In this document: positions 21,557 through 64,000 of the stretch, in pieces
Numbering within the stretch: the stretch's first letter is position 1
Layout of the letters: every line of letters begins with the position of its first letter
Assembly (NCBI RefSeq): GCF_024713945.1
Contig: NC_134680.1
Coordinates: forward strand, 6,197,501-6,261,500
Origin: Dermatophagoides farinae
Lineage: Eukaryota; Arthropoda; Arachnida; Sarcoptiformes; Pyroglyphidae
Length of the DNA stretch: 64,000 nucleotides
Reading direction: 5' to 3'
Program-made: the position numbers and the translations under genes
Notes under the pieces: generated by a model
The model's database searches: none
Seen by the model: only the letters and a program-made list of their open reading frames with translations
Told to the model about the DNA's origin: nothing

Positions 21557-21816
21557 ATGACCATATCAACATTAATATTATTGACGATTGTAACGTCATT
21601 GGTGAATGGTCAACAATCATCGGTCATTCGAGGTAATGGATGGATGGATGATGATGATGATGATCAAAGTTCGATTTCTGCTTTATTATTTTTTTTTACT
21701 AACATTGATGTTCATTTTTTTCTATTGATCAATTTTCTTTAACCAAATTTATTATTGTTTTTCCTTTGCAAATTGTGTGCCTGTGTGGATTTTATTGGCT
21801 TTCTCATTTAAATCAT

Positions 21817-21847
<31 letters not shown>

Positions 21848-24800
21848 CAAAAATAAAGTGCCCACAATTCGTGTGAATAGCCGTATTGTTTACAGGGATC
21901 ATGTGGTAACACCACCACCATCAACACAGCCAAAACCACCACGGGCTCCATATCTGATTCTATTACCCACTAATCGTCGAACATTTTTCAATAATCCATT
22001 CAATAATCCAACATATTGTATGTAATCATTCTGTGGCCTGTTTTCATTCTTTGTTCTTTGCATGTCAATGAAATTTGATTGATTTTTAATGATTTGAATA
22101 TATTGAATTATTGATAGATAACAATTATCGACCATCAATCGAAAATGCTGAAGAGAATATTCTACCTGGACCGGCTACAACGGAAAATTTTCATCCACCA
22201 ATAAATGATAATGATGATGAATCGACGGAAAAAACTGGTTCACCATTTGATTTTCTTAACGATGTACTGGATGAAGAACATGATTTGAATAATGCCAAAG
22301 CTGCATTGGATAGCCCCAATACTCGTGATGTTATTAATCAAAATGGTAAACAAAAATGATGATAATGATTTTTAGCTTGAATGATCGAACGATTTTGTAT
22401 TCGAAAATACAGGACCAAACATGACTATATTTGCTCCAACTGATGATGCATTTAATAATTCACCAAAAGATTGGTCGGAAGAGGATAAGAAAAAATTTCT
22501 CGATAATCATGCTATTGTTGGTCAACGTGTACCGATTTATCGATCAAATAATGGTCCAGATGAACCATCACATAAAGAAGATCGGCCAAATGTATTGAAA
22601 CCAAATCTTCATATGGGTTCCAGCCCATTAGTACATAAAGTGGATCGATTACAAAATGAACCAATCAGTCCGATGACAATAATGTCTATGCAGCCAATTC
22701 TATCGACAATATCACGATTAGTTAAATTTGCACAAATGGAACCAAAATTACGTGAATCCGGTACATTTTTCTGTCCATTTGATAATCCAATCACAAGAAA
22801 TATTGCACGTAATGCTAATCCAAAAAATATGAAACAAGTTCAAGGTCAGTATTTAAATTACATACCAAAATAATAATGTGATACGATTTTTTTTCTGTGA
22901 ATTTAGAATTTCTATCTGACCACATGGTACCAGGTAATCAACAACAACAACAAGGTTGTCGTCGTGGTATGAGAAATTTAAATGGCAATTCGATTGATTG
23001 TGAAGAAACAGATCGTACAATTCGAATTAATCAGAAAGAATTCCCAAAACGGCAAATCAAAACACCATTGGGTATTATTTTCATTATTGATGATATTATT
23101 TTCGATAATGCACCATATATGGATAGATTGTTGCCCCGGCAACCACCGATATATGTGCCACGAATATTCATTACATTAAGGCTTGTACCAGCACATTTAT
23201 TCAATGATAAAAATCAATCATCACCATTAATCGGTAATGCTGATGGTAATGATTCGGAAATATCGGAAGATCAACATGTTCGTCTTGAAAGACAAAATCG
23301 TTTACCACCACCAGCACAGGTATTACGACAAGCTAAAAATCGTCGCCCACAACAATCTAATGGTTTTCCACAACGATATCAACAAGGTTTCGATGAACCA
23401 TTACAACAAGAACAACAGAAAATAGAGGATATACCGGATGAAGACGAGTATCGACCATTACCACAATCACCTAGGAAAACCAAACCAAAATCAAATGGAA
23501 ATGGTGCGAAAAAAACACCGAAACCAAAAAAACCAACTGCTCAAGAAGAAGAATCTGAAGATCAAGATCAATCGGATCAAAAACCTCAGCAACAATATCC
23601 GAAAAAGGGTAAAAAACCAAATGGACGAGGTAAAGGACAAAAATCACCTGCTCAAAATAAACCAAAACCAAAAGAAGATGATCAGCCACAAGATCCACAA
23701 CAGGCGATTGATGATGACGAACCGGAAGATGATTCTGACCAAAATGCTCCACAACAATCAAGTGAAGATGATGAAGAAAAGCCCGAAGATGTAGGAAAAT
23801 CCAATGATGAAGATGAACCAAAGGAAGATGAACCAAAAGATGACGATGAACCAAAAGACGAAGACGAACCAAAAGATGAAGACGAACCAAAAGATGACGC
23901 TGAACCAAAGGAAGATGAACCAAAGGAAGATGAACCAAAAGATGAAGACGAACCAAAAGATGACGATGAACCAAAGGAAGATGAACCGAAAGAAGATGAA
24001 CCGAAAGATGAAGATGAACCGAAAGAAGATGAACCAAAAGATGAAGACGAACCAAAAGATGATGAGCCAAAAGACGAAGATGAACCAAAGGAAGATGAAC
24101 CGAAAGATGAAGAGGAACCGAAAGATGAAGAGGAACCGAAAGATGAAGAGGAACCAAAAGATGACGATGAACCAAAGGAAGATGAACCGAAAGATGAAGA
24201 GGAACCAAAAGAAGATGAACCAAAAAATGAAGACGAACCAAAAGATGATGAGCCAAAAGACGAAGATGAACCAAAGGAAGATGAACCGAAAGATGAAGAC
24301 GAACCAAAAGATGAAGATGAGGAAAAACCCGAGGATGTTGGAAAATCAAATGATGAAGATGCACCAGAAGAAGAGCCACAACAAGAAGAATCTGGTGATG
24401 AAGAACCAGAACCACAACAGCAACAACAGCCAGATGCAGATGATTTTGATTCACAACCTCAACAGCAACAACAAAAACAGGAAGAAATACCTGATGAAGA
24501 TGATTCATTTGGTGAATCACAGCAACAACAACCTCCACAACCCCCACCAACAAAAAGCAAAAAACCAAAATCAAAATCTCCAGCAAAAAAAGGTAAACAA
24601 CCAAAACAACAACCAGAAGATTCAGACAATAGTGCACAGCAAGCACCGGCCAAGAAAAAGAACGGTAAACCAAACGGAAATGGAAGACCAAAATCTCCAG
24701 CTGCAGCTGGACGACGACCACAACCACAACCACAACAAGAACAGGAACAAGAATCACCGAATGATTATCCATTGGAACAACAACGTGATTCAGAAGATCC

Positions 24801-25873
24801 ATTCGAACAAAGACCAGAAGATTATCCGGCATTCGAACCACAACAACGAATCGAACCGAATGATCCAGATGATTTTGGTGAAATGCAACAATTGATGCAA
24901 AAATCAGCACGACAACTTCGTTGTGCACGTTTCGTTGATTGGCTAATGAACAGTGGTGTAATGGATCAGATTCTTGAAAAAGCAAAAGAATTCAATGTTA
25001 CATTATTTGCACCAGAAGACAGTGCTGTTTCACAACTGCCGTTCAATATGTTGAATAAAATGCAACAACAACCAAAACGTAATGCCGATCTAATGCTTAT
25101 GCATGCTATACCTGAATCATTTGAACAGATATATCCAGCAACACGTAGTAATTTTCATAGTCCACTAGGACAACCATATGATACATTTGCACCAATACAA
25201 ACAATGCAACCAGAACGACAAATCCGTTTTGATCGTAGTATAATGCCATCACCATTAACTGGCCAATATCAACCATTAATCTCTGGTTGTCCGTTGAAAA
25301 ATTCACATCAAATTGGTCCAATTCGAATGGTATCCACTGGTGCGGTACTATTTCCACCACAACAATCCATTTATTCTGTTATGAAACGATCACCTAATCT
25401 ACGTTTATGTCGTGAAATAGTGGATCAAGCACAGATGGCTCCACAATTAAGTCGACCAGATCGATCATATACAATGTTTACACCTACAGATGATGCAATC
25501 CGTAAACGATTATCACCACGACAATTAAATTCACTTGTTCGTGATCCGAATGCTTGCCGTAGATTTGTCGATAGCCATCTGGTAGCTAATCGTGCTATTT
25601 ATCGTAGTTCAATTCCGCTTACACCACGTGAACAAGTTGATCCAAATTTTCAAGGCCGTCAAACCGAAGTACCAAGCTGTATGGATCATGAACCATTACG
25701 AATTCGACGATCTGCACGTAAGTATTGTTGTTGCAGTGTTGTTTTTATCTTCTGAAAAAAAAATTTTTTCTTTTTCAATTTTAGAATCTTTTTACGTTAA
25801 TGGTGGCCATGTTCAATATGCCGATATAACAACCAACAATGGTGTGGTTCACATATTGAATGATTTCATCTAA
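21557..25873 (+). CDS. Secreted multi-domain fasciclin (FAS1) protein with acidic DEPK repeat
   Basis: Extracellular protein with FAS1 (fasciclin/periostin-like) adhesion domains. Six exons: 21557-21632, 21859-22017, 22118-22345, 22413-22844, 22907-25717 and 25785-25873. Every junction is phase 1, which suits modular shuffling, and the total is 1264 residues. The signal peptide is MTISTLILLTIVTSLVNGQQ. FAS1 H1 motifs are seen three times: MTIFAPTDDAF (about residue 157), VTLFAPEDSAV (about 985) and YTMFTPTDDAI (about 1155). The H2-like end is DITTNNGVVHILNDFI at the C-terminus. Between domains lies a Gln/Pro/Lys-rich region and a block of DEPK/EDEPK repeats at about residues 590-780, flanked by a duplicated EEKPEDVGKSNDED segment. 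It is strongly polyampholytic. Exon 2 uses an AG with a poor pyrimidine tract after a (GAT)n run, so that junction is the least sure. Confidence 0.85.
23770..24366 (+). repeat. Acidic DEPK repeat block in the FAS1 gene, flanked by direct repeats
   Basis: About 200 codons of alternating Asp/Glu-Pro-Lys units (EDEPK, DDEPK, EEEPK types). A 51-nt segment encoding EEKPEDVGKSNDED lies at 23770-23820 and again at 24316-24366, differing mainly at third positions. The units vary mostly between GAT/GAC and CCA/CCG codons, as expected for an expanding repeat kept in frame. Other frames and the antisense strand stay open here only because of the repeat composition. Confidence 0.9.
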
Positions 25874-25886
25874 TGATTAATGTTTT

Positions 25887-28420
25887 CAAATCAAATCAAA
25901 TCCGATCATAATTCCTTTTACCCCATGATCACAAAAAAATTATACAAATCAATCAATCCATTTTTTTTATCTCAAAATGATGATTAAAAGAAAAAAATTT
26001 CGAAAAAAAATCAACTAAAATCTTTGACCTTTTTGTCAAAGAGCCACTTTTTAGTACAAATGTGTGTGTGTGTGTGTATGTGTGTGTTTGGGTGTGGTCG
26101 ATATAAAGGTCAATGGCGATTAAATAGGAATGATAATTTTCAATTTAATTTCAAAATAATAAAAATCCCAGTATCATTCGATTGTTATTTGTTAAATGAT
26201 GCAAAGCCTAGCAACACATAATGATGATAAGATAAATTGTTTTTTTTTGCGATGTAAAAGGTAAGAAATTTATGGATTTATTATCATTATTATCGATTAA
26301 ATGATGCGATTTCTCAATCATCCGTCATCAACTGATCTCATATGCGTGGAGAAAATGTCATCGAAGCATTTATTATAAAATAAGAAAATCCAATTTTATC
26401 CTATCCTGGTTTTTGTTTGTTTTCTTTTTTTTTTGTCAATTGAAATTTAAACTTTTTTTTTTGTTTTAAAAATGCCATTATCAACAGAACCATCGACAAA
26501 TGCACCAACTACTGCTGCTCAACCACCAACGAATGATGATCCACTCAAACTATTGGCACAGATTGAGATCGATAATGATCAACACATTGTTCGTAATGTT
26601 GCACCGAAAAAAATGCCAAAATTTCAAAGTGTAGCCCAATTTTTAGATAATTCTATGAAAGAAATGGCTAACACTGAAACGATTGGTTTGGTAAATATAT
26701 ATTGATTTCATTGTATTGTTGAATTTTGATTAAATTTTTATTGCTCACACCACAATAGATTGATGCCGAAATGAATACGAAAAAATTGTCCTATAAAGAT
26801 TGGTATAATCAATCCAAACATTTTGCATCATCATTGATTAATGAATATAATTTGAAAAAAGAAGAAACCATTGTATTTTACAGTGAAAATTCTCTCGACT
26901 ATGCAATAACATTGATTGGAACAATATTTACTGGCTGTACATTTACACCGGCCAGGGCGGCTAATGGAAAATTTGAATTAACACAACAGATAAAAGATTG
27001 TCATGGTTCAATATTGATTATTGATTGTAAAAAACAATTACCAATATTAGAAGCTGCATTACGTAGTGAACAATATCGTCAAGATATACTTGAAAATTTA
27101 CGATTGATAATTATTATGAATGAAAATGAAAATGACAACAGCAACAACGACAGTGAAATTATCAAAAATTTAGAAACAATTTTAAAAGACAGCGAATGCA
27201 AAATTGATCATGTCAAACAAATGATAAACAACGGTGGTGATATGGCCAAGATACCACATTTTCCCGTAGATAAAGATGATCATTTTGTTATCATTTATAC
27301 ATCCGGTACAACGGGTACACCTAAAGGCGCTATTCATTCAAATTATTCAATGATGGGTTCAATGGGACAAAGAATGCAAAATTCAGCAAATAATGATACA
27401 AATCAGAACAAAATGTTTGAAAACTTTGATCAAAAATATGGACTGTTTTGGTATCCATTATGTCATGCGTCCGGTACATTTATTTTTCTTTTAGAAATAA
27501 TAAATTGTCGTACAAATGTTTTAGTTGTTAATAATCAATTGGATCGATTATTACAACTTGTATCGGAATATCGAGTAGCTGCCTTGTCATTGTCACCAAA
27601 ACATGTTGCTCATATGGCACAAAACGATTATCATGAACAATTTGACCTAAATTCACTGAAAATGATTTGGTGTGGTGGTTCGAAAGTTCCATTGAATCGT
27701 ATTGAAAATATACAGAAAAAATATAAAGTTTTTTACATCGATGGTTATGGTACAACAGAATTTTTAGCTGGAATACAGAATATGGAATTTATGTTTGGTC
27801 GAAAATTTAAATTGGGTTCAGTGGGTAGACCATCACCTGGTGCCGAAATGAAAATTATTGATCTGGAAACCGGAAAATCATTGCCTGCTGAAAAACAAGG
27901 CGAAATTCTGCTACGTGGTCCACAAAGATTTGTTGGTTATCTAAGAAATGAACGAGCAACAAATGAAACCATAGATTCAGATGGCTGGTATCATACCGGT
28001 GATGTTGGTTATTATGATGATGAAGGTTACCTGTATATTGTTGATCGTATCAAAGAAATAATCAAATTTCGTGAATATAGCGTATTTCCAGCTGAAATTG
28101 AAGAATTTATTCTAAAGAATCCTGCTGTTGATAGTGTTTGTGTTGTCGGTGTACCACATAAAGTTGATGGCAATCATATACGTGCATATATTCAAATCTG
28201 TCAAGGACAATCGTTGAGTAAAAAAGAAATAATCGATTCAGTACAGGAGAATCTGGGCTTCCAAAAACGTTTACGTGCTGGTGTACAATTTGTGCAGCAT
28301 GTTCCACGTACATCCACTGATAAATTAGATCGAAAATATTTTCGTTCATTAGTGAAAAATGAATTATTAACTAATGAGATCGAATAGAATATGTTGGATT
28401 TTTAGTTTTTAAAAAATGAT
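25887..28420 (+). repeat. Tandem duplication unit 1 (ligase gene with flanks)
   Basis: Homologous to 28430-30896. Similarity covers the upstream spacer (shared TCTCAAAATGATGATTAAAA), both exons, the intron and the trailer AATATGTTGGATTTTTAG. Approximate edges only, judged by eye. Confidence 0.8.
26472..28387 (+). CDS. Luciferase-like/4CL-like acyl-CoA ligase, copy 1 (ANL superfamily)
   Basis: Adenylate-forming enzyme that activates a carboxylic acid with ATP and transfers it to CoA; the substrate cannot be read from sequence. Two exons, 26472-26690 and 26759-28387, phase 0, 615 residues. Motif A3 YTSGTTGTPKG is at residues 253-263. A5 is DGYGTTEF, A7 is YHTGDVGYYDDEGYLYIVDR, and the A8 region is KFREYSVFPAEIEEF. 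The family usually has a Gly-rich K-G turn in A8, so REYS is a local departure. The A10 lysine is kept in PRTSTDKLDRK, but the usual Gly before Lys is Asp. The C-terminus is TNEIE, with no SKL peroxisome signal, unlike beetle luciferases. The Thr/Pro-rich start is not a clear signal peptide. Immediately followed by a close copy. Confidence 0.92.
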
Positions 28421-28429
28421 CATATTGAT

Positions 28430-30896
28430 TGTGTTTCAAATCAAATCAATGATCGAATCGAATCAGATCACAATTCCTTTTTATCATTCATTTTTTGTCT
28501 CAAAATGATGATTAAAAAAAATCATTTCGAAAAAATCAATTAAAACTTTGGCTTTTTCTTTGAAGACACAATTTCGGTACACATGTGTGTGTTCGGTACA
28601 AACTTCAAGTTCAGTACATTTGTCAATGTCAATTAAATTGGATTGATAATTTCGGCATATCATTCAATTGAATTGATCAAAATGATGAAAATACCAGTAT
28701 CATTCGATTGTCATCATTTGTTTAATAATGTAAATCTAAGCAATACATAATGATGATGATGATAAGATAAATTGATTTTATTTATGGTGTAGAAATCCAT
28801 TGATTGATTTTCATTATCGTCAACTCATCTGATATGTGTGGAGAATTTCATCGAAGGATTTCTTATAAAATAAGAAAATCCAATTTCATCCAATCCAATA
28901 TCCGACTTGGTTTTTGTTTTCTTTTTTTTTGTGCATCGTTCATTGAAATTTATTATTTTTTTTTGTTTTGAAAATGCCATCATCAACTACTCCAACTAAT
29001 ACTACTCAACCACCAACGCAATATGATCCACTCAAACTATTGGCACAGATCGAGATCGATAATGATCAACACATTGTTCGTAATGTTGCACCAAAAACAA
29101 TGCCAGAATTTCAAACTATGGCCCAATTTCTAGACGATTCTATGAAAGAAATGGCTAACACTGAAACGATTGGTTTGGTAAATATATATATCGATTGTTG
29201 AATTTTGATTAAATTCTAAAAAAAAAATTTCACGTTATTCACAATAGATTGATGCCGAAATGAATATGAAAAAATTGTCCTATAAAGATTGGTATAATCA
29301 ATCCAAACATTTTGCATCATCATTGATTAATGAATATAATTTGAAAAAAGAAGAAACAGTTGTATTTCACAGTGAAAATTCTCTCGATTATGCAATAACA
29401 TTGATTGGAACAATATTTACTGGTTGTACATTTACACCGGTCAAGGCGGCTAATGGAAAATTTGAATTAACACAACAGATAAAAGATTCTCGTGGTTCAA
29501 TATTGATTATTGATTGTAAAAAACAATTGCCAATATTAGAAGGCGCATTACGTAATGAACAATATCGTCAAGACATACTTGAACATTTACGATTGATTAT
29601 TTTGATGAATGAAAATGAAAATGACAACAACAGTGCAATCATCAAAAATATAGAGACAATTTTAAAAGACAGCGAATGCAAAATTGATCATGTCAAACAA
29701 ATGATAAACAACGGTGGTGATATGGCCAAGATACCCCATTTTCCCGTAGATAAAGATGATCATTTTGTTATCATTTATACATCTGGTACAACGGGTACAT
29801 CTAAAGGCGCTATTCATTCAAATTATTCAATGCTGGCTTCAATTGGTAAAAGAATGCAAAATTCAGCAAATAATGATACAAATCAAAACAAAATGTTTGA
29901 TAGATTTAATCAAAAATATGGACTGTTTTGGTATCCATTAAGTCATGTGTCCGGTACATTTGTTTTGCTTTCAGAAATAATAAATTGCCGTACAAATGTT
30001 TTAGTTGTTAATAATCAATTGGAAAGATTATTACAACTTGTATCGGAATATCGAGTAGCCTTCTTGTCATTATCTCCAAAACATGTTACTCAAATGGCAC
30101 AAAATGATTATCGTGAACAATTTGATCTAAGTTCAGTGAAAATGATTCCATGTGGTGGTTCGAAAATCCCATTGAATTGTATTGAAAATATACAGAAAAA
30201 ATATAAAGTTCTCTTCATTGATGGTTATGGTTCAACAGAATTTTTAGGTGGAATTCAGAATATGGAATTTATGTTTGGTGGTAAACTCAAATTGGGTACA
30301 GTGGGTAGACCATCACCGGGTGTTGAAATGAAAATTATTGATCTGGAAACCGGAAAATCATTGCCTGCTGAAAAACAAGGCGAAATTCTGATACGTGGTC
30401 CACAACAATTTGTTGGTTATCTTAGAAATGAAAGAGCAACAAAAGAAACCATAGATTCAGATGGCTGGTATCATACCGGTGATGTTGGTTATTATGATGA
30501 TGAAGGTTACCTGTATATTGTTGATCGTATCAAAGAATTATTCAAATTTCGTGAATGGAGCGTATTTCCAACTGAAATTGAAGAATTTATTCTAAAGAAT
30601 CCTGCTGTTGATAGTGTTTGTGTTGTCGGTGTACCACATAAAGTTGATGGCTATCATACACGTGCATACATTCAAATTCGTCAAGGACAATCGTTAAGTG
30701 AAAAAGAAATAATCGATTCAGTACAGGAAAATCTGGGTTTCCAAAAACGTTTACGTGCTGGTGTACAATTTGTGCAGCATATTCCACGTACATCCATTGG
30801 TAAAGTGGAGCGAAAATATTTTCGTTCATTAGTGAAAAATGAATTATTAACTAATGAGATCGAATAGAATATGTTGGATTTTTAGTTTTTAAAAAT
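28430..30896 (+). repeat. Tandem duplication unit 2 (ligase gene with flanks)
   Basis: Second copy of the 2.5 kb unit beginning near 25887. The upstream spacer is shorter than in unit 1. Both units end in the same AATATGTTGGATTTTTAGTT trailer, followed by different DNA. Confidence 0.8.
28974..30867 (+). CDS. Luciferase-like/4CL-like acyl-CoA ligase, copy 2 (ANL superfamily)
   Basis: Close tandem paralogue of the preceding ligase. Exons 28974-29177 and 29248-30867 share the intron position; 607 residues. The ATG at 28974 aligns with the copy 1 start. Differences from copy 1 fall in motifs: A3 reads YTSGTTGTSKG (residues 245-255), with Ser for the conserved Pro; A5 is DGYGSTEF; the A8 region has KFREWSVFP; and A10 is PRTSIGKVERK, with the canonical Gly-Lys. 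So each copy departs from consensus at a different motif. The N-terminal Thr/Pro stretch is shorter. No peroxisome signal (ends TNEIE). An AATAAA is at 30984-30989. It converges on EXOC7, whose stop is only 320 nt away. Confidence 0.92.
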
Positions 30897-31186: not shown

Positions 31187-33448
31187 TCAAGCCAATTCAT
31201 CAAATAACAAGCTAATCGATTGTGATACATGATCCGGTGTATATTTAATATATTTATGAACATTTTTCGTAAATTCTACAGCAACATAACGTTCATAGAA
31301 TTGAAAATAGATACGATTTAACCATTGAATTAATTCTTTTTTAATCTCTTCACGTAGATCACGATCAGGTATAGCATACGAACGATGTGATTGTATAACT
31401 TGTTCAAATTCTTTATTGAAGCCAGCAAATTTATCTTTAATAATTTGTCTATCTTTATCCTTCAATCGAATCATCATCATTGGTTGTGCATGATGATGAT
31501 GATGGTGATGACCACTAATGGTTGATGACGATATACCAGATAAACTATATGATGATGAATGTGAATTTGACAATGTTGAATATGATGATGATGATGACAT
31601 TGTGCCCGTACGTTGTGGTGATAAAATTGTCGGATTATTTATTTCATCAATATAGTGAACAACTTTATTCCAACATTTATAATATTCCATTTTAAATTCA
31701 CGAATCTGTATTTGATAATCATCACGTATGTTCGAACGATATAATGATACAATCGATAGCAATGAACTGGTTGTCAATGTTTTCAATATATAGAATGTAT
31801 TATTCAATAAAAATAATGATTGTAATGCTTGATCATTATGATATGATTCAGAACGTTTACGTAATGAAAGACCCATTGCCGATAGTACACGCCAAATATA
31901 TTGTGCAAATGCGATACGATTTTTATCACCAGATAATTCTAATGATTGTATATCAGTCACCGTTACTACACGTGATAATATATCCAAATATGATTGTAGA
32001 TGTACCAGAAATAGCATTACATTGCTTGTTAATTCATGTACAGTACCATCTTTTGGTACACGATGATGATGTTGATCACATTTAATATATTCAATAAATT
32101 CTTCCAATGTTTTCGATATGGTTGTCTGTAATGTAACAACAAGTGAATGTAATCGATTCGATACTTGTGGATCACAACCATCCAACAGCAAATCGAATGA
32201 ATGACGCATATATGCATGATAACGTAGTACGGGCAATAGAAATAGTGCCGAACTGAAATCCTGTTTTTGTACCGATCTTTTTACACGTGTTGATAATTGT
32301 TCACCTTCATTGTAAACTGATTCCAATGATGAAAGAATAACACGTGAAAATATTGTTTTCTGATGTTCCACCGGTATTATTCGTTCGATTAATGATAATT
32401 CTAATTGCATCAATTTCAATAAACCAGTTACTGTTAATACATAGGCAAATATTTCTGGTTCAGTTATATTAATGTCCAATAAATTATCTTTATCCATCGA
32501 TGATGATGATGATGTTGTGGATGTAGAAATATCGATACGTTTCATTAGATGAAGATTTTTACGTCCACCCAACAATGGTGATAGATGTGCACCAAGTGTT
32601 TTAATCATTGAACCAAGTGTTGATGATTTCAGATATGATCGAAGATTTTTCAATGATTTAGATAAAACATCGGATCGTAAACGTGAATATAGTAGTAGAA
32701 AATCTTGATTACGATTATAACAAAGCCATTCAGCTAATAATTTTAAATCTTGTAAAATTTTTTCTGGATTACCACCACCACCACCACCATTACGACGATC
32801 AGATAATTTAAACACTTTATATAAATCCGGTTCTTGTTGCGGTGGTGTTGTTAATGATGATGATTGATTTTTTTCCAATAATTGATCATCATTCGATGAT
32901 TGTTGTTGTTGTTTTTGAATAATTGGACCATTCGATTTGATCATATCGAGAATGATGTCAACTTTTTTTATCTCTTCACTATGACGTGACATATTTTGAC
33001 GAAATTCTTTCTGAATAATTTGTCCACCTTTTTCCAATAGACTACCACAATTCATCAGTTCAGGACTTTCACGATTATTACGTTCAAAATAACGTACAGC
33101 ATCTGTAAGACGATTAAGATCCGAAATATATTCACCATACATTGATGATGATCCTGGACCATTGATGATATTTGGTTCAACTTCGCCAGCAACCGTATAG
33201 AATTTTATAACATAATCAAGCCGTTTTAATGATGAATTTATATTCTCTTGTTGTCGTTGTAGATTACCAGTTTGCTTATAAACTGGTTGTACTGTTTCTT
33301 CTAGTTTCAACAGACGATCATCAAATTGTGTTAATGTTTCGACCATTTTCATACAATTATCTGTCGATGATGTTAATAATGATTTTAGACGAGCCAAACT
33401 ATTCGTTGCATTGGCCAATTTACGGCGATCATCTTCTAGTTCCAACAT
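31187..33448 (-). CDS. Exoc7: Exocyst complex component 7 (Exo70)
   Basis: Exo70 subunit of the exocyst, which binds PI(4,5)P2 and tethers secretory vesicles at the plasma membrane. A single exon, 753 residues. The N-terminal coiled coil (about residues 1-80; FDDRLLKLEETVQPVYKQTG, then NLQRQQENI) matches the family. It is followed by SPELMNCGSLLEKGGQIIQKEF and the long helical-rod region. The C-terminal domain contains FNKEFEQVIQSHRSYAIPD and FTKNVHKYIKYTPDHVSQSI with the ending LFDELA. Ser- and His-rich runs around residues 610-660 are local low-complexity insertions. The ATG at 33448 is chosen because the family begins close to this coiled coil; an in-frame upstream ATG at 33571 would add a Phe-rich, unlikely stretch. 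It lies tail-to-tail with ligase copy 2. Confidence 0.93.
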   Translation of the reverse strand: MLELEDDRRKLANATNSLARLKSLLTSSTDNCMKMVETLTQFDDRLLKLEETVQPVYKQTGNLQRQQENINSSLKRLDYVIKFYTVAGEVEPNIINGPGSSSMYGEYISDLNRLTDAVRYFERNNRESPELMNCGSLLEKGGQIIQKEFRQNMSRHSEEIKKVDIILDMIKSNGPIIQKQQQQSSNDDQLLEKNQSSSLTTPPQQEPDLYKVFKLSDRRNGGGGGGNPEKILQDLKLLAEWLCYNRNQDFLLLYSRLRSDVLSKSLKNLRSYLKSSTLGSMIKTLGAHLSPLLGGRKNLHLMKRIDISTSTTSSSSSMDKDNLLDINITEPEIFAYVLTVTGLLKLMQLELSLIERIIPVEHQKTIFSRVILSSLESVYNEGEQLSTRVKRSVQKQDFSSALFLLPVLRYHAYMRHSFDLLLDGCDPQVSNRLHSLVVTLQTTISKTLEEFIEYIKCDQHHHRVPKDGTVHELTSNVMLFLVHLQSYLDILSRVVTVTDIQSLELSGDKNRIAFAQYIWRVLSAMGLSLRKRSESYHNDQALQSLFLLNNTFYILKTLTTSSLLSIVSLYRSNIRDDYQIQIREFKMEYYKCWNKVVHYIDEINNPTILSPQRTGTMSSSSSYSTLSNSHSSSYSLSGISSSTISGHHHHHHHAQPMMMIRLKDKDRQIIKDKFAGFNKEFEQVIQSHRSYAIPDRDLREEIKKELIQWLNRIYFQFYERYVAVEFTKNVHKYIKYTPDHVSQSISLLFDELA

Positions 33449-35187
33449 TTTCAGAAGAAAAAAAAATGATGATGATGATGTGAAACAACCATCAACAAAA
33501 CAAAAAAACACCTCATCAATAAAATATTTGGTTTTTTTTATTGACAAAAATTGTTTTTGTTGTGTTTTCATCCGAAATTATGACTACTCGTTCATAGATG
33601 GCGTTTGTTTTGAATTCAACCAAAAAAAAAAAAAAACATTCGAAATTCCATGATAATTCCAAATTGATGACCTTTTTGTTGTTGTTGTTGTTGTGGTTCA
33701 ATCAAGAGAAAAAAAAACAGAAACGAAAGCCGGAAACTTTATTGATGGTCAATTTTTTTTCTTTATTTTAATAAATTATTAATTATATTGAAATTGAAAT
33801 TGAAATTACAATCAACAATGGGAAAGAAAAACAAACAAACAAACAAATAGTAAGGGGGAAAAAGCTAACAGAAAAACTGCAAGAAAAAAAATTTTTTTTT
33901 GTTGTTGTCATTGTCGTTGTAATGTTGTGTGTGTGTGTGTGTGTGTGTGAATGTTATTTAAGTATACGACATAAATGAATTGAATAATTCAACAATTAAA
34001 ACAATACTGATTTATCGATGATTCGAATGAATGGAAAAAATTTTTGGTTTTTATTATTTAGTTAGTTTTCGGTGGATAAGATTTGCTCTGTGTTGATGTT
34101 GGATGATGATGATGATGATGATGACATTTAAGCACAAGACAAGAATTTTTTTTTTTAGAAACCAACAAAAATCTTATATTTATATAAATAGATAGGAAAT
34201 GTCAAATATCAAGAATCTAGTGAATTTTGTTTTTTCATTCGATAAACACAAACCGGAATTATAGCAATAGGTGGATTAAACAAATAATCTATATTTTTTT
34301 CTGTTTTTTTTTTTTTTTTGATAATTTTTCAATTTAAATTCAGGAATTGGAATGTTCTGTGTGTGTGTGATTGGATATTAATTGAATGAATAATTCATTG
34401 AAAAAAAATTTTTTTTTCAGGAAATTGAAAATTGAAATGAAAACAAAAAAATTGAAATTTCAGTAGTAGCAGTAGTAGTCATATATGTGAGTCCAATTTT
34501 TTTTAATAGTATGCGTGTGTGTGTGGTAAATTCATCAAATTTTCTATTTCCGTTTTCATTGATTTTTGTTTTGTTTATTTTCAACAAAAAAAAACAAAAG
34601 AATTTGTTGGAGAAAAAGTTCTTAAATAGATGAGTTGTGGTTGGGGTGGTGGTGATGGTAGTCGGTGGATGGTTAATTGATGATGACGATGATGATGATG
34701 ATGAATGTTTGGAATTACAAGAAATGTAGTGGTTGGTTGAGAATTGATGACGTTGATGATGATGGTGATGATGATGATGATGATGATGATAATCAAAGTC
34801 GATCGATAAACAACAACAAAAGTGAAATTAAAATCAAAAAAAAATAAACAGACAGATAGACAAACAAACAAACAATCAATGAATCAATGTGAAAACATAT
34901 GGTTTTTTTTTATTATTGGTATATGTTCGAATGTGTGGGAGTGGTACACACGTCTCTTGTGTTTGTGTTGGTGATATATTTTTTGAGTGTAATTATGACT
35001 TTTCCTGGTTTTTTTTAAGGTTTCACATTCAAATGAATAATAGAATTTTTTTGTTTAAAAAAAAAGGAAGTAGCAGCAGCAACAAAACGAAAAAAAAAAA
35101 TTTGTTGTCAGAATCATCATTTTCAGAATTCCATATTCCAATATTCTTGTTTTGAATTTTTTTTTTATTTTTTGATTTTGATTATCT
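33449..35187. other. Intergenic region EXOC7 / peptide precursor
   Basis: Holds the EXOC7 5' region, with a CATAGATGGCG motif at 33593-33603, then (GT)n at about 33928-33950, (GAT)n at about 34104-34122 and 34755-34790, and homopolymers. Leftward frames in the (GAT)n area are repeat translations. No gene supported. Confidence 0.55.
33593..33603 (+). promoter_or_regulatory. AGATGGCG motif upstream of EXOC7
   Basis: CATAGATGGCG shares the AGATGGCG core with the site before BBS5. It lies about 150 nt upstream of the leftward EXOC7 ATG. The flanks fit the CTCF consensus less well than the BBS5 site. Confidence 0.25.
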
Positions 35188-38100
35188 TCAACACAATGAA
35201 TGACATTGAACCGGATGTAATAATCCTTGCAATATACAACGACGCATACATTCTGGTCCTCTTTTGCCTAATGTTGTTGAACTTGATGATGATGATGATG
35301 ATGGTGGTGATGATCGTAAAATCGATGATGATGATGATGATAATATTGATGGTTTATGTTGATGAATTGAATATAATTTTTGTCGATTCTGTTCACGTTG
35401 TTGTTGCTGTTTCTGTAATAATAGCCTTTCACGTGGAAATTGTTGCAAATGTCTACGTAATAATTCAATCAAACGATTTGGATCTTTTAATATTGTTGAT
35501 TCATCATTGTTTTGGTTATTATTATTATCATCATTATCATTTTTATTGTCCATCGATTCTATATTCAATACTGATGATGATGGTGATGGGGATGCCCTCG
35601 TTGATGCTGATATTGATGATGATGATGATGATAATGGAATTGTATTCACTGATTGTTGCTGTTGCGGTTGCGGTTGTTGTTGATCCATTATATTTGAATG
35701 ATCCATATTTTCCATTGAAATACTTGTTGTTGTTGGTTTTGTAACGATATTTATGGATGATGCAGATGATGATGGTAATGGTGATAATTGTTGATTGTTT
35801 GTATCAATTGTATTTGTTGTATCCATGAATACAATTTGATTTGATTTTTTAATCGATGATGCCATATCATTATTATCTGGATTATTTTCTGAATCAAAAT
35901 TATTATTATTATCAACGGAATTTGAATCGATAGAAGAAGAAATATCTTCATCATTATTGATTGGATCTGTATTTGAAAACCATGGCGTTGATGATGATTG
36001 ATAATGACGATGATGTTTATTCATTGAATCCAAATTTGATGACAATGATGACAATGATGATGATGATGGTGGTGGTGGTGGTGGTGGTGGTGGTGGTTGG
36101 AAAAATAAACCACCACCACGTGACCAAACAAAATGTTTTTGTTTTCGCTGTTGTTGTTGTTGATGTGGATGATAATAATAATCATTATTTTCATTATTAT
36201 TATAATTATTATGGCCATTATGATGATTATGATGATTTTGTTGATATGGTACTACAGGAAATATATTACGTAATACTTCATTCAATTCATCAATGGCAGC
36301 ACGTGTTTTTCCTTGATCATCATTACCATCATCATCATCATTATCGTTATTATTATCATTATAGATTAGATGATGAATTTGTTTCTTATCATTATTATTA
36401 TTGTTATTATGTTGATTAATATTCATATTTTGATTTTGTTTATTATAATTAATACGACTTCTTGTCATTATTTGTATATGATGATGATGATCATTATCAT
36501 CATCTCTATGACCTATTATTGGATCTATATTTATTTGAAATAATGAAAAAAAAAATGAAAAAAATAAAAATTAATACAATGATGAATGATGTGCATTACA
36601 GAATTTATGAATGACCGTGGTCAGTCACTATCGAAAGCCACATTATAATGAACAAACGAATGACGACATGCCCAATGGGCTTAATTTAAAATGGATTATT
36701 ATTTATCGCCATTTCATGTTGATGGACTCTGGAGGTTTTTTTTTGTTTTGTCTTTTTTTTGATATGGACATTTAATTTGACCTAAATTTATATATGTGTG
36801 TGGTTATTATTTATTTATTTACCCGTATTAGATCCGATTATGATCCGATCACCATCATCATCATCATCTCATCAGTTTGTGTGTGTGTCTATGTGTTTGA
36901 CAAATATGATTATTATATATAATAATCGGGCGGAAATTTTTTGTTGTTGTTGTTGTTGTTTTGTTTCGCAATTATAAATAAAAGATAATAATTGTCAATA
37001 AATTCTAATTCTGTGCTACTGAACAACAACAACAACAACTGAATTCTGGTGAAACCGGAATTTTTTTTGGATTTTCAGTGCGGCAGCAGCACTGAAAAAA
37101 TATTTTGTTGTGGTGATAAACATGAAAAAATAAATGACAACAACTTTTTTTGTCATCCGAATATATATAAAAAAAAAAATCATTTCCGATAAATGTAAAT
37201 GGAGAGAAAAAAAAATCAATTTTCACTAAGGTCGTGTAATTGAAATGAATTGGATGAATGAATGATCATTCCAATAATCATTACTAGTTGAATGGCTATA
37301 AATATCGGAAAAAGTGGGAGTAGTGGTGGTGGTGGTGGTAATGAACAATGAAATTGGATAAATCGACAACAACAACCATGACATTTTTCGAGTACGAATG
37401 AACATTACTTCCGATAGTAATTATTAACCATTCATTGATGATGATCTGAATGATTGATTTGTGTGGAAAAATTTTCGTTTTTCATGCATATAAATTGATT
37501 GTTTATTTATTTTTCTCCAATGCGTTTGTTGTTGTTGTTAATCAAATGAATTGGATTTTTTTTCACGCAAATGAAAATCACAAATTACATGATTTCAAAT
37601 CTCGCACTCATACACACACACACACACACACAATAAGTAAATGGTAATGACACAAAATGATTGATCGATTAGATAATGATTCGTAAATTATTGTTGTGGT
37701 TGTTGTTGTTGTTACAGTGTAAATGAAACCACAATTTGTTGTTGTTGTTGTTGTTGTTAACCACAAAAACAACAAACGATAATGACAACGATTCAATAAT
37801 AATCGATGATATTGCCAAAAAAAAAAAAATTCGTTTGTGGCCATTTACAAACACCGAGCAAATTATCGTATAATGATGATAAATGAATGACCAAAATTTA
37901 CTCAAGGTGTAAATGAATTTGTTTTCTATAAATAACCGGTGTGTGTGTGTGTGTGCATGTGTGTCGAACCTAAATTTTTTTTTTCGTTTTGCTGAAATAT
38001 GAATTTTTTTTTGAAATACCCGTCCCGAAGAAAAAAATTATTACAAAAATAACTGTTGCAAAAAACCCAACAAACCAAAACAAATGTTCACTTGTTTTTC

Positions 38101-39080
38101 GTCAAATTTTCAACTACAATTGTTCTTTTTTTTTTTGCTAGAAAACACACAAAATTCTAATGAATTTTCAAATGCAAAAAAAAACAAAACGAAATTCTTG
38201 CATGCCATGGGACATGTATGTTGATGAAAACATACAGATCTGATACTGATGTTGAAAATGTTTACGATACACAATTTTCTGTTGTTGTTGTTGTCGTTGT
38301 TGTTGTTATTTTTGTCGTACTCTTTTTTTTCTAAATTCTTTGTTTAATCAGAATTAATTTGATTCAAATTTCATTTAACGTGAATAAGGAATTTATTCAT
38401 GTAGATAAATTTAAAAAAAAACAAGAGAAAGTGAAAACGTAAAAAATAAAAATTCGGTCACAACACACACACACAAACACAAACTAATTATCCAGTTGGT
38501 ATCTGGTTACAAACATATTGGATAAAAATGATGATTTGATGTACTAAATAACATTAACTACTATCACTACGACGAAGAATGATGACGACAAACAAATTGA
38601 GGTTATTGAGAAAAAGGATAATGTCATAAATTTGGATTAGTATCGATTTTCATTGATTTTTCTTGTTTTTTTTTATTCTCATAAAATCAAAAGAATATTC
38701 TCTTGAAAGAGAATTAATTTTCAAACTTGACAAAGCGGAAGTTGTTTTCTTACTTTCATACAGAGAATGTTTTGCAATTCGTGCGGAATTGCAAAAAAAA
38801 AATTCAATTCTTTTTTCTCTTGTTTCAGGAACAGGAAATTCAATTTGAAAATGGCAAAAATTGAAAAATTTTTAATATAAGAAAAACTTTTCAGAAATCA
38901 AATGTAAAGATTATGATTTCTGAAAAGTTTTTTTTTCAACGGGAAATTTCTCATTTCTCAATTTTTTTTTAGATAAATAAATAGAAAAAAAAATCATTAA
39001 AATTCATTACCTGTCCAAATAAATGTCAACACAAATGTTATTATGATAAACATTTGCATTAGAATTCGTTGTGGATACAT
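35188..39080 (-). CDS. Secreted precursor with C-terminal four-cysteine peptide after a Lys-Arg site
   Basis: I do not recognise a named family. Two exons, 39080-39011 and 36524-35188, join in phase 1 (GTAATG donor, ATATAG acceptor) to give 468 residues. Exon 1 encodes a signal peptide (MYPQRILMQMFIIITFVLTF, then IWT), so the product should be secreted. The main exon is a long Asn/Ser/Gln/Pro low-complexity spacer. It contains two ordered-looking segments, AAIDELNEVLRNIFPVVPYQ and DPNRLIELLRRHLQQFPRER. The end is LGKR, a prohormone-convertase site, then a 23-residue peptide (35191-35259) with cysteines spaced C-x3-C-x10-C-x3-C and core MRRCILQGLLHPVQC. This layout is typical of a neuropeptide or bioactive-peptide precursor. 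The double CxxxC spacing recalls helical-hairpin peptides. The 2.5 kb intron and start choice are inferred from phase and signal-peptide quality. Confidence 0.68.
38770..38796. repeat. Hairpin with 11-nt perfect arms
   Basis: Arms TTTTGCAATTC and GAATTGCAAAA flank a 5-nt loop GTGCG. Lies about 90 nt from a longer hairpin, inside the intron of the peptide precursor gene. Confidence 0.85.
38882..38932. repeat. Hairpin with 19-nt perfect arms
   Basis: Arms AAAAACTTTTCAGAAATCA (38882-38900) and TGATTTCTGAAAAGTTTTT (38914-38932) are exact reverse complements around a 13-nt loop. Lies about 80 nt from the signal-peptide exon. Confidence 0.9.
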
Positions 39081-61134: not shown

Positions 61135-64000
61135 CTAATTCGATCCATTCAATGTGGCTAATGTTGCTGCTGTTGCGGCTGTCAATGCATTCATTTCATT
61201 CAAAGCGGCTTCTTCCAATTCTTGTTTCAATGAATTTTCCGGACTAATTAGACTGCTACGTTTATGTGCATAATTTGTTGTTGTTAATGTTGATGGTGGC
61301 TTTGGTACAGCAGTATTTGCAGCAGTACCATTACTTATGCCATTTTTAGTTGCAGTCATGGTTGATGATGATTTAGGAATTTTCGGTACAGATTTTTTCA
61401 CATCATTTTGAGTATTATTATTACGAACACCTGTTTTAGCCGTAGCGGTTGTTGTTTTTTTCAATGTAGATGACATGGTTGTGGTCGTTGTTCGTTGCTT
61501 CGATAAGTTTGTTGCCGCTTTTGAAGCCGTGGTACCTGGTGTTGTGGTGGATGTTTTGGTAGTAGCAGCTGGACGAATCGATCCAACTTTTGTTGCTGTA
61601 GTAGAAGTTGACAGTGGTTTTCTTGCCGCAATACTATTGCCAGTTGAAGCGGAAGTTGACAGTGGTTTTCTTGCCGCAATACTACTGCCAGTTGAAGCGG
61701 AATTTGTCGATGTTTTTGGTTTCAAAGTTGTTTTTGGTACCGCCGTCGTTGTAGCACGTGTAGTTTTTGGTGCGGTAGTCAAAGTTGAAGTGGTAGCCGG
61801 TTTATTCAATGTAGATTTAGCAGTTGTGGCCGTAGTCTTCAACGTTGTTGTTGAACGATTTGTCAAAGCTGTTCGTGATGGCTTAGCGGCAGCAACTGTA
61901 GTAGTTCCACTTGTAGTTGTCGTTCTAGTTGATGCAGTTGGACGATTTGTTAAGCCAGTGGACCGATTAGTCGATGTCAATCGAGATGACAATGCGGTAC
62001 TTGTCACCGGTTTTTTATCACCAGTTTTAGTTATTGCTGCCGGTTTGCTTCCAGTTGTTGTTTTTGTGTTATTTGAAGATTTAGTAGCAGTTGTTAAACG
62101 AGATGATACTGCTGGACGAGTGGTAGCCGTTGTTTTTGGTGCTAAAGTTTTTGTACCAGCAACAGTTTTGTTATTCGATGTTTTACCTGTTGTCGTTGTT
62201 GTTGTTGTTGTTGATGGAGCAGCGGTTTTGATTGTTGCTTTTGATGGAACAGTACTTTTGACAGGAACAGTAACAGGAGCAACAGAAGCAGGTATAGTTT
62301 CTGAAGTAACCACGACTGGAACTTGTTCCAAAACTTTTTCTGGAATTTCCTCTACTTTCGAAACAATTTCTTTCTTTTCATCAACTGCTAATGGTTCAAC
62401 CAAAGGAAGCTGAACTTTATCTTCATTCAATACTGATAACGGAGCCACTGAATATTCATCCAAATTAGTCTCCACAAATTCAGGTACAGATCTTTTAACT
62501 CGATTAACATCATCATTATTATCACTCATATCAATTACAGGTGATGATGATTCCGATATGAGCATTTTAGAATCTTCAATATCATTGACTATTTTATCGT
62601 CTAATTTGCCAAATAAATCTCCATTAGGAATAGATTTGTCATCATTATTCAGATCAATAATACCATCACTGATGTTTTGGGAAACTGGTGCTTTAATCTC
62701 ATCGGTATTTTGTAATGAAATTTTCGATAAGTTTTCAACAACAATATCATTCATTTTTTCTTCGTGGCTAGTAGTATTCATTGATTGTTGAATATCATAA
62801 TCATCATTAGTAATAACAGTGGCAACAGCAGCAGCTTGAGCTTGCGGAAAATCGGAATCAATCAATTTTTCATCCAATTTAGGATCATTGTCCATTTCAA
62901 ATAATTGTGATCCAATAGTTGTTGTTGTTGTTCTATTATCCAAAATAGATTCATGATACTGTTGTTGTTTAAAATCATTAAATTCTTGTTGTTGCTGTTG
63001 TGGTTCATTCAATCCAAAATCATTAGCATCATCATCACCTTCGATTGGATCGATAATTTTTGCTGGTAACTTTGAATCATCATTAATGTTATTTTCAAAC
63101 ATTAGGTCTGATTTTTCATCATTTGTAAATTGCTAGATTTAAAAAAAAATGAAAAATTCATTATTTATATTGGTTTTCATGCCAAACATACCTGTTCATT
63201 ATAATTATCCAGCTCTTGTTGTTGTGGTGGTGTTGGTGATGGTGGTTGATGATCATATAATAATCCAGATTCTAATTGTGAATTCATCAATAACATTGGT
63301 GTTATCAATGAACCAGGTAAATTTTCCATCGGTTTTGTATAATCTGTTTGAATCATCAAATCATTGGATTCATCATTGAATGAAATTTGATTGGCAAACA
63401 TAAAATCATTCATCATCACTGCACCGGTATCATTATTATTAGCAGAATCATTAATTGGTGAATTAATCAATGTTGGATCAGTAAACGTAGATAATGGAAC
63501 TTCATTTGAATCAATTGTAAAAGAATGATCATCCATATCCATAATATTGCTACCATCATTATTAATTGGATATATTGATGAAGTATCAATAATTGTTGTA
63601 TTTGCCGAACTATTTTCAAATGGATTAACACTCGATAGATTCGCTTGTTGTTGTTGTTCAATCGATTCAAATGATTCAAATGGATTATTTCTATTATTAT
63701 TCTCCATATTATTATAATCATTACTATCTGCTATTACATTGTTAACATTGAATGATTCTGATGATGATTGACAAATGAAATTCATTTCATCCATTTGTTG
63801 TTGTTGTTGTTGATGATTTTGTTGTTCATCATCATCATCATTAACAAGGAGTGGTGATGGTGGTGGTGGTGGTTGTTGTTGTTGTGGTTTACTAATACTA
63901 TTATTATCATCTTCATCATCATCATTATTATAATCAGGTAATAATGTTTTTTCCATTATTAATTCTTCTCTTTCAGCTTTGTTTTCGTATTTGTCATCAC
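61135..64000 (-). CDS. Unrecognised Thr/Ala/Lys-rich acidic-then-basic protein (5' end cut by window)
   Basis: I do not recognise this protein. Two exons are visible: 64000-63192 (the frame remains open to the window edge, reading DDKYENKAEREELIMEK) and 63132-61135, joined in phase 0. An ATG at 63956 would give 920 residues, but the open upstream frame suggests the start lies outside. The N-terminal half is acidic, Asn/Gln-rich and has two NPF motifs (NNPFESFE, VNPFENSS), the ligand of EH domains in endocytosis. The middle is a long Thr/Ser/Ala/Lys-rich basic stretch, disordered and similar in style to microtubule-associated proteins. It includes a tandem repeat of SIAARKPLSTSASTG. The C-terminus, SLKQELEEAALNEMNALTAA, is a probable short helix. 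Function unknown. Confidence 0.7.
61604..61699 (-). repeat. 48-nt in-frame tandem duplication
   Basis: Units 61604-61651 and 61652-61699 differ at a single base (CTATTG versus CTACTG). Each encodes 16 residues including SIAARKPLSTSASTG, so the frame is kept. The near identity points to a recent event. Confidence 0.92.

Follow-up and report, generated by a model that had tools for sequence, protein, structure and literature searches.

A two-exon gene of Dermatophagoides farinae for a putative secreted precursor with a four-cysteine tail, a candidate orphan prohormone

A two-exon gene that appears to encode a secreted precursor with a cysteine-bearing C-terminal tail is confirmed as a real observation on the minus strand of contig C4 of the 62.4 Mb, 22-contig Dermatophagoides farinae genome, within the 64,000-nucleotide stretch analysed here (the window). 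Its product is probably an orphan prohormone that would release one cystine-stabilised helical-hairpin signalling peptide, the splicing, cleavage, disulfide pairing and hormone role being the parts of this reading that we infer. The reading is supported by two exons that join in phase and by a sole Lys-Arg (KR) pair directly before the sole four cysteines, and further by the coding statistics of exon 2, a signal exon ending at AG|GTAATG and two predicted helices in the tail.

Gene structure and coding content of the main exon

The features of the gene are given in Table 1. Exon 1, with the product MYPQRILMQMFIIITFVLTFIWT, has its phase-1 end at CAG|GTAATG, and TCAACA stands directly 5' of its ATG. 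The signal peptide was assigned from a hydrophobic core of 11 residues with a mean Kyte-Doolittle value of 3.0. Exon 2 lies in a 460-codon open frame, counted from stop to stop, and its start is preceded by ...AATATAG, with the acceptor AG at 36526-36525. An earlier note on this DNA had proposed the two exons, the phase-1 GTAATG donor and an acceptor of matching phase, and joining them at those coordinates did give an in-frame product of 468 residues plus stop, without a frame break, the frame being restored via Asp24-Pro25. The proposed splice would thus yield a protein with just 4 Cys, alongside 68 Ser, 65 Asn and 42 Gln. The AATAAA downstream of the stop lies in an A-rich context and is therefore a weak candidate for a poly(A) signal.

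Table 1. Features of the two-exon gene (positions are those of the window).
Feature	Position	Strand	Remarks
Exon 1	39080-39011	(-)	70 bases; phase-1 end before GTAATG (39010-39005)
Signal peptide, residues 1-23	39012..39080	(-)	assigned from hydropathy; base 39011 opens codon 24
Putative phase-1 intron	36525..39010	(-)	2486 bases, GTAATG...ATAG
Main exon (exon 2)	35188..36524	(-)	1337 bases; propeptide, KR, tail, stop TGA
Propeptide segment AAIDELNEVLRNIF, residues 99-112	36259..36300	(-)	ordinary complexity
Helical propeptide region, residues 372-412	35359..35481	(-)	predicted (AlphaFold2)
Lys-Arg, residues 444-445	35260..35265	(-)	sole KR in the protein
Putative 23-residue C-terminal peptide, residues 446-468	35191..35259	(-)	Cys 449, 453, 464, 468
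AATAAA, possible poly(A) signal	35164..35169	(-)	18 bases 3' of the stop

The GC content of exon 2 by codon position is 0.42/0.36/0.13, as compared with 0.44/0.33/0.17 in the neighbouring Exo70 frame. Codon log-odds were trained on eight Pfam-matching open frames of the window (Exo70, BBS5, the large fasciclin frame, two AMP-binding, LRR and two Serinc), and exon 2 scored +135 bits in the frame of the gene; among its other frames, one antisense frame with 35 stops scored +61 bits, and the remaining four were negative. Exon 2 thus shows the codon-position profile and the codon usage of the neighbouring conserved genes.

Segments were then compared with open non-coding windows of matched length. 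The codon score was reached or exceeded in 12 of 2847 such windows for residues 95-119, in 20 of 2170 for residues 365-394, in 12 of 679 for residues 365-415, and in 155 of 2575 for the tail with KR (residues 442-468). Codon usage therefore backs the propeptide well, and the tail is only mildly coding-like; the tail score, together with the non-coding-like score of exon 1 described below, was counted against the reading as a prohormone. Since the propeptide segments outscore the tail in this test, conservation may extend beyond the last 23 residues, on which the earlier note expected purifying selection to be concentrated.

Just 32% of the residues exceed the entropy cut, and the propeptide segments of ordinary complexity include residues 93-117 and 370-381. 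The neighbouring gene for an Exo70 exocyst subunit, at 31187-33577 (-), is one open frame that also has Ser/Gly/His low-complexity runs. Judged from this neighbour, the low-complexity spacer is not special, and its Asn/Ser/Gln richness may reflect a tendency of the genome as a whole.

Elsewhere in the window, two adjoining genes for AMP-binding enzymes (PF00501 and PF13193) occupy 26759-28387 and 29248-30867 (+), possibly as a local duplication, and a 665-codon open frame at 61135-63132 (-) has no Pfam match at E 0.001. Outside the window, the genome has seven matches of the group-2 allergen type, of which the one compared (L010) aligned with Der p 2 and Der f 2 at E about 1e-30, a clear relative that differs from both and that makes an astigmatan mite the most likely source.

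The cysteine tail and its proposed processing

A Lys-Arg followed by a 23-residue tail with four cysteines had been claimed earlier, and both were found as described (KR 444-445, the sole one in the protein; Cys 449/453/464/468). The four cysteines of the protein all fall within its last 20 residues as C-x3-C-x10-C-x3-C, behind the KR; for a random placement of four cysteines in 445 residues, P is 3e-6 (calculated post hoc). The exact pattern C-x3-C-x10-C-x3-C-stop occurs once in the six frames of the window and was not found in 60 third-order Markov sequences (3.84 Mb). When the pattern was loosened (x6-14, stop within 3), it was seen four times against 0.08 expected; the other three of these matches comprise two overlapping readings of a cysteine-rich repeat (+37692/37695) and one CVCVCV repeat (-12113).

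When the last 30 residues were modelled by AlphaFold2 from the single sequence, helices were predicted at 9-17 and 23-29 (mean pLDDT 76.5, pTM 0.36), with block pLDDT values of 85 and 83 across the tail. The same two tail helices appear in a 104-residue model (mean pLDDT 71.2, pTM 0.29), which adds propeptide helices at 8-21 and 23-48. The two helices of the helical hairpin suggested in the earlier note are thus predicted in both models: the tail may form two short helices pinned by two disulfides, and a hairpin closed by Cys1-Cys4 and Cys2-Cys3, the pairing presumed here, would fit these helices. Both models are single-sequence and have a low pTM, and a Foldseek search gave no match in the PDB; each of these results was counted against a prohormone. 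So was the build of the precursor, since neuropeptide precursors do not usually place a single peptide after 420 residues of propeptide that is mostly of low complexity.

In the proposed pathway, the signal peptide would direct the precursor into the secretory pathway, and the tail would fold within the precursor as two short antiparallel helices, probably with Cys449-Cys468 and Cys453-Cys464 disulfides. After folding, a convertase of the furin/PC2 type would cut behind Lys444-Arg445, the dibasic site that borders the peptide, and release one non-amidated peptide of 23 residues (GPE...SLC; calculated monoisotopic mass 2588.21 with two disulfides), which would signal through a membrane receptor. 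According to an excerpt of PMC4237046, common convertases usually avoid cutting beside a disulfide cysteine; KR is therefore favoured over the internal Arg-Arg, which directly precedes a cysteine, as three residues separate KR from Cys449. The genome has five matches to the convertase P-domain, two of which adjoin on contig C2, one of these with a stop, and two matches to 7B2. Given these and the CHH-type matches described below, Lys-Arg processing and the machinery of peptide hormones are likely present.

The main rival, which we consider unlikely, gives the peptide a role in defence or in a gland: the same KR-processed hairpin would serve as an antimicrobial, a protease inhibitor, or a salivary or dermal-gland effector. 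It is favoured by the use of this cysteine layout in such roles by plant alpha-hairpinins and scorpion kappa-KTx. The motif C-x3-C-xn-C-x3-C with Cys1-Cys4/Cys2-Cys3 pairing is described, in the accessible parts of PMC7191063 and PMC11722136, for alpha-hairpinins and some scorpion and cone-snail peptides, and maize MBP-1, an antimicrobial alpha-hairpinin, contains the ECMRRC of the mite tail, though in its second CxxxC (PMC6273665, in part). The calculated charge of the tail peptide at pH 7, about +0.9, is low for an antimicrobial and speaks mildly against this role. So, mildly, does the single copy of the tail in the genome, since gland peptides often occur as families. The empty Pfam scan of the tail up to E 10 was likewise counted against this role.

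Less likely again is an uncleaved secreted or extracellular low-complexity protein, with the cysteine tail as a folded C-terminal cap or an assembly element. The small share of residues above the entropy cut (32%) would suit such a protein, and the long segment ahead of the tail that is predicted to be helical might serve as a functional domain; however, the sole KR sits precisely on the border of spacer and tail, and the tail is predicted to fold alone, both of which favour a released peptide.

The first exon and its join to the main exon

The signal-like first exon of the earlier note was recovered from its hydropathy and from the structure of the gene, with a hydrophobic core and a phase-1 donor at 39080-39011. 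Within the 8.4 kb upstream region, no other ATG exon combines a hydrophobic core with a phase-1 GTRA donor. In 200 Markov copies of that region, such ATG exons occurred 1.2 times per copy on average and at least once in 134 copies; hence hydropathy with a phase-1 GTRA donor is by itself weak evidence for exon 1. When AG was also required before the GT, a condition chosen post hoc, once exon 1 was already known, one of eight minus-strand and one of 20 plus-strand candidates in the window were kept, and none in the 200 Markov copies.

The second AG|GTRA signal-like exon of the window (plus strand, 21557) fits the neighbouring fasciclin gene and shares the donor AG|GTAATG with exon 1. This gene, at 21557-25755 (+), has a candidate signal exon MTISTLILL... 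with a GAGGTAATG donor, from which an in-frame join to the fasciclin-domain exon can be made at any of three acceptors, the first of which gives an exon start at 22413. Its product is likely a secreted fasciclin-domain protein.

The codon-usage score of exon 1 is -6.3 bits. Scores this low were rare among coding windows (3 of 368), and of the open non-coding windows 1289 of 3172 scored as high. Codon usage thus gives exon 1 no support at all, and as its score resembles that of non-coding sequence, exon 1 rests on splice signals and hydropathy. The low value may be due to the hydrophobic, A+T-rich signal peptide.

A wrong join, with exon 2 coding in another protein or exon 1 belonging elsewhere or being non-coding, would agree with the frequency of candidates in the Markov copies when the AG condition is dropped and with the non-coding-like score of exon 1, but it is very improbable, as the first ATG inside exon 2 shows no signal peptide, the donor of exon 1 matches that of the fasciclin candidate signal exon, and no other signal exon candidate lies within 8.4 kb upstream.

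Search for relatives and comparison with known peptides

The earlier note had placed the peptide in no named family, and Pfam scans up to E 10 and the PDB search led to the same result. The interpretation given in that note is supported in part, for the gene structure, the layout of the tail and the lack of a named family. No credible relative was found in Pfam, the PDB, the mite's own genome, or viral or prokaryotic contigs, which was counted against the reading as a prohormone. The Pfam scan of exon 2 up to E 10 gave no hormone family; PRIMA1 matched at E 1.6, over a proline run, and the frame of the signal exon matched myelin PLP at E 0.012, short of the family cut-off. A phmmer search of PDB sequences returned nothing credible, and a partial overlap with saxiphilin at E 0.08 was taken as chance. 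In the genome itself, the tail, residues 365-394 and residues 95-119 have one match each, namely themselves, and the DNA of exon 2 has at least 61 matches of 30-131 bases, largely to its repeat-rich parts (40 of 124 candidates scored).

Among stretches with the pattern in viral (145) and prokaryotic (590) contigs, none was confirmed. A DNA pattern of the HP[VA]QCHxLC type gave 48 loci (2 viral, 46 prokaryotic), which were translated in the frame of the pattern, and 47 of them were ruled out by the lack of a CxxxC 7-12 residues upstream. The remaining locus, L044 on a Bacteroidetes contig, has the x3-x10-x3 spacing but no following stop; we regarded it as a bacterial gene read in a shifted frame, because similar readings occur in bacteria at L029 and L038, the latter with a stop. 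All 48 loci were judged to be chance matches.

In the literature on mite and arthropod peptides, no title or start of an abstract among the matches listed names the precursor, the search lying outside supplements and most subscription journals. Matches to fragments of the tail, judged by title, were mostly unrelated letter runs, with maize MBP-1 as an exception.

Trissin, CHH/ITP and eclosion hormone are made from precursors with a signal peptide, a spacer, a basic cleavage site and a cysteine-stabilised peptide. The mite precursor has the same general plan, but its tail differs in the number and spacing of its cysteines, which are four, whereas trissin, CHH and eclosion hormone have six each. 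Membership of the eclosion hormone family was rejected on the four cysteines and the lack of a PF04736 match for the gene. A frame-wise search of the genome, which may overlook genes divided among several exons, gave no PF04736 match at E 1 or less either, in line with the absence of eclosion hormone from D. pteronyssinus reported in PMC12105342 (seen in part). Membership of CHH/ITP was likewise rejected, as contigs C3, C10 and C2 carry the four PF01147 matches at E 1 or less, and the window is on C4. One of the CHH-type hormone genes (L067, 1153-1713) has its signal-like start and its complete domain in one frame, and a second CHH-like gene on another contig (L068, 1372-2228) is seemingly split over exons.

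The Doppelganger-related peptides from molluscs and annelids, of the types 'Hairpin' and 'Medial', are, in the portion of PMC10501145 consulted, likewise proposed orphan signalling peptides with disulfide scaffolds. The Hairpin type differs in being contryphan-Vc1-like, and the Medial type in its 40 residues, predicted amidation and central position in the precursor (PMC10501145).

The mite tail shows the motif C-x3-C-xn-C-x3-C of the alpha-hairpinin and kappa-KTx scaffold. As peptides with this alpha/alpha hairpin occur, by the account in part of PMC11722136, across widely differing organisms and vary in length and activity, the shared motif speaks to shape and not to ancestry. Membership of the kappa-KTx and alpha-hairpinin families was rejected, the tail having no Pfam match up to E 10 and no credible PDB sequence match. 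Plant alpha-hairpinins, which are helix-loop-helix peptides, share the motif with the tail, whose own two helices are a prediction, but they come from multi-module or vicilin-linked precursors (PMC7191063, in part). The ECMRRC common to maize MBP-1 and the mite tail, where it lies in the first CxxxC and hence in the other half of the hairpin (PMC6273665, an excerpt), is taken as chance or convergence.

If real and conserved, the peptide would be a new orphan ligand in mites, where several hormones of other chelicerates are reported missing, in the passages seen of PMC12105342 for D. pteronyssinus. It would also be a defined peptide of 23 residues, open to synthesis and to assays on orphan receptors, and would give a non-venom role in arachnids to the alpha/alpha hairpin scaffold, for whose cystine-stabilised form plants and venoms are the sources cited in parts of PMC7191063 and PMC11722136. 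There is a slim chance that the gene represents an undescribed endogenous family of alpha/alpha-hairpin hormones in mites, perhaps in arachnids at large.

The closest comparison in an arachnid is with scorpion kappa-KTx (CS-alpha/alpha), which has the same cysteine layout, and the scorpion and cone-snail members are likewise short, with 22-27 residues (PMC7191063 and PMC11722136, in part). Kappa-KTx differs in its short venom precursors, as compared with 468 residues in the mite (PMC11722136). If such a hormone family does exist, its hairpin peptide, made in the body, could be a non-venom ancestor of scorpion kappa-KTx or a structural parallel to it.
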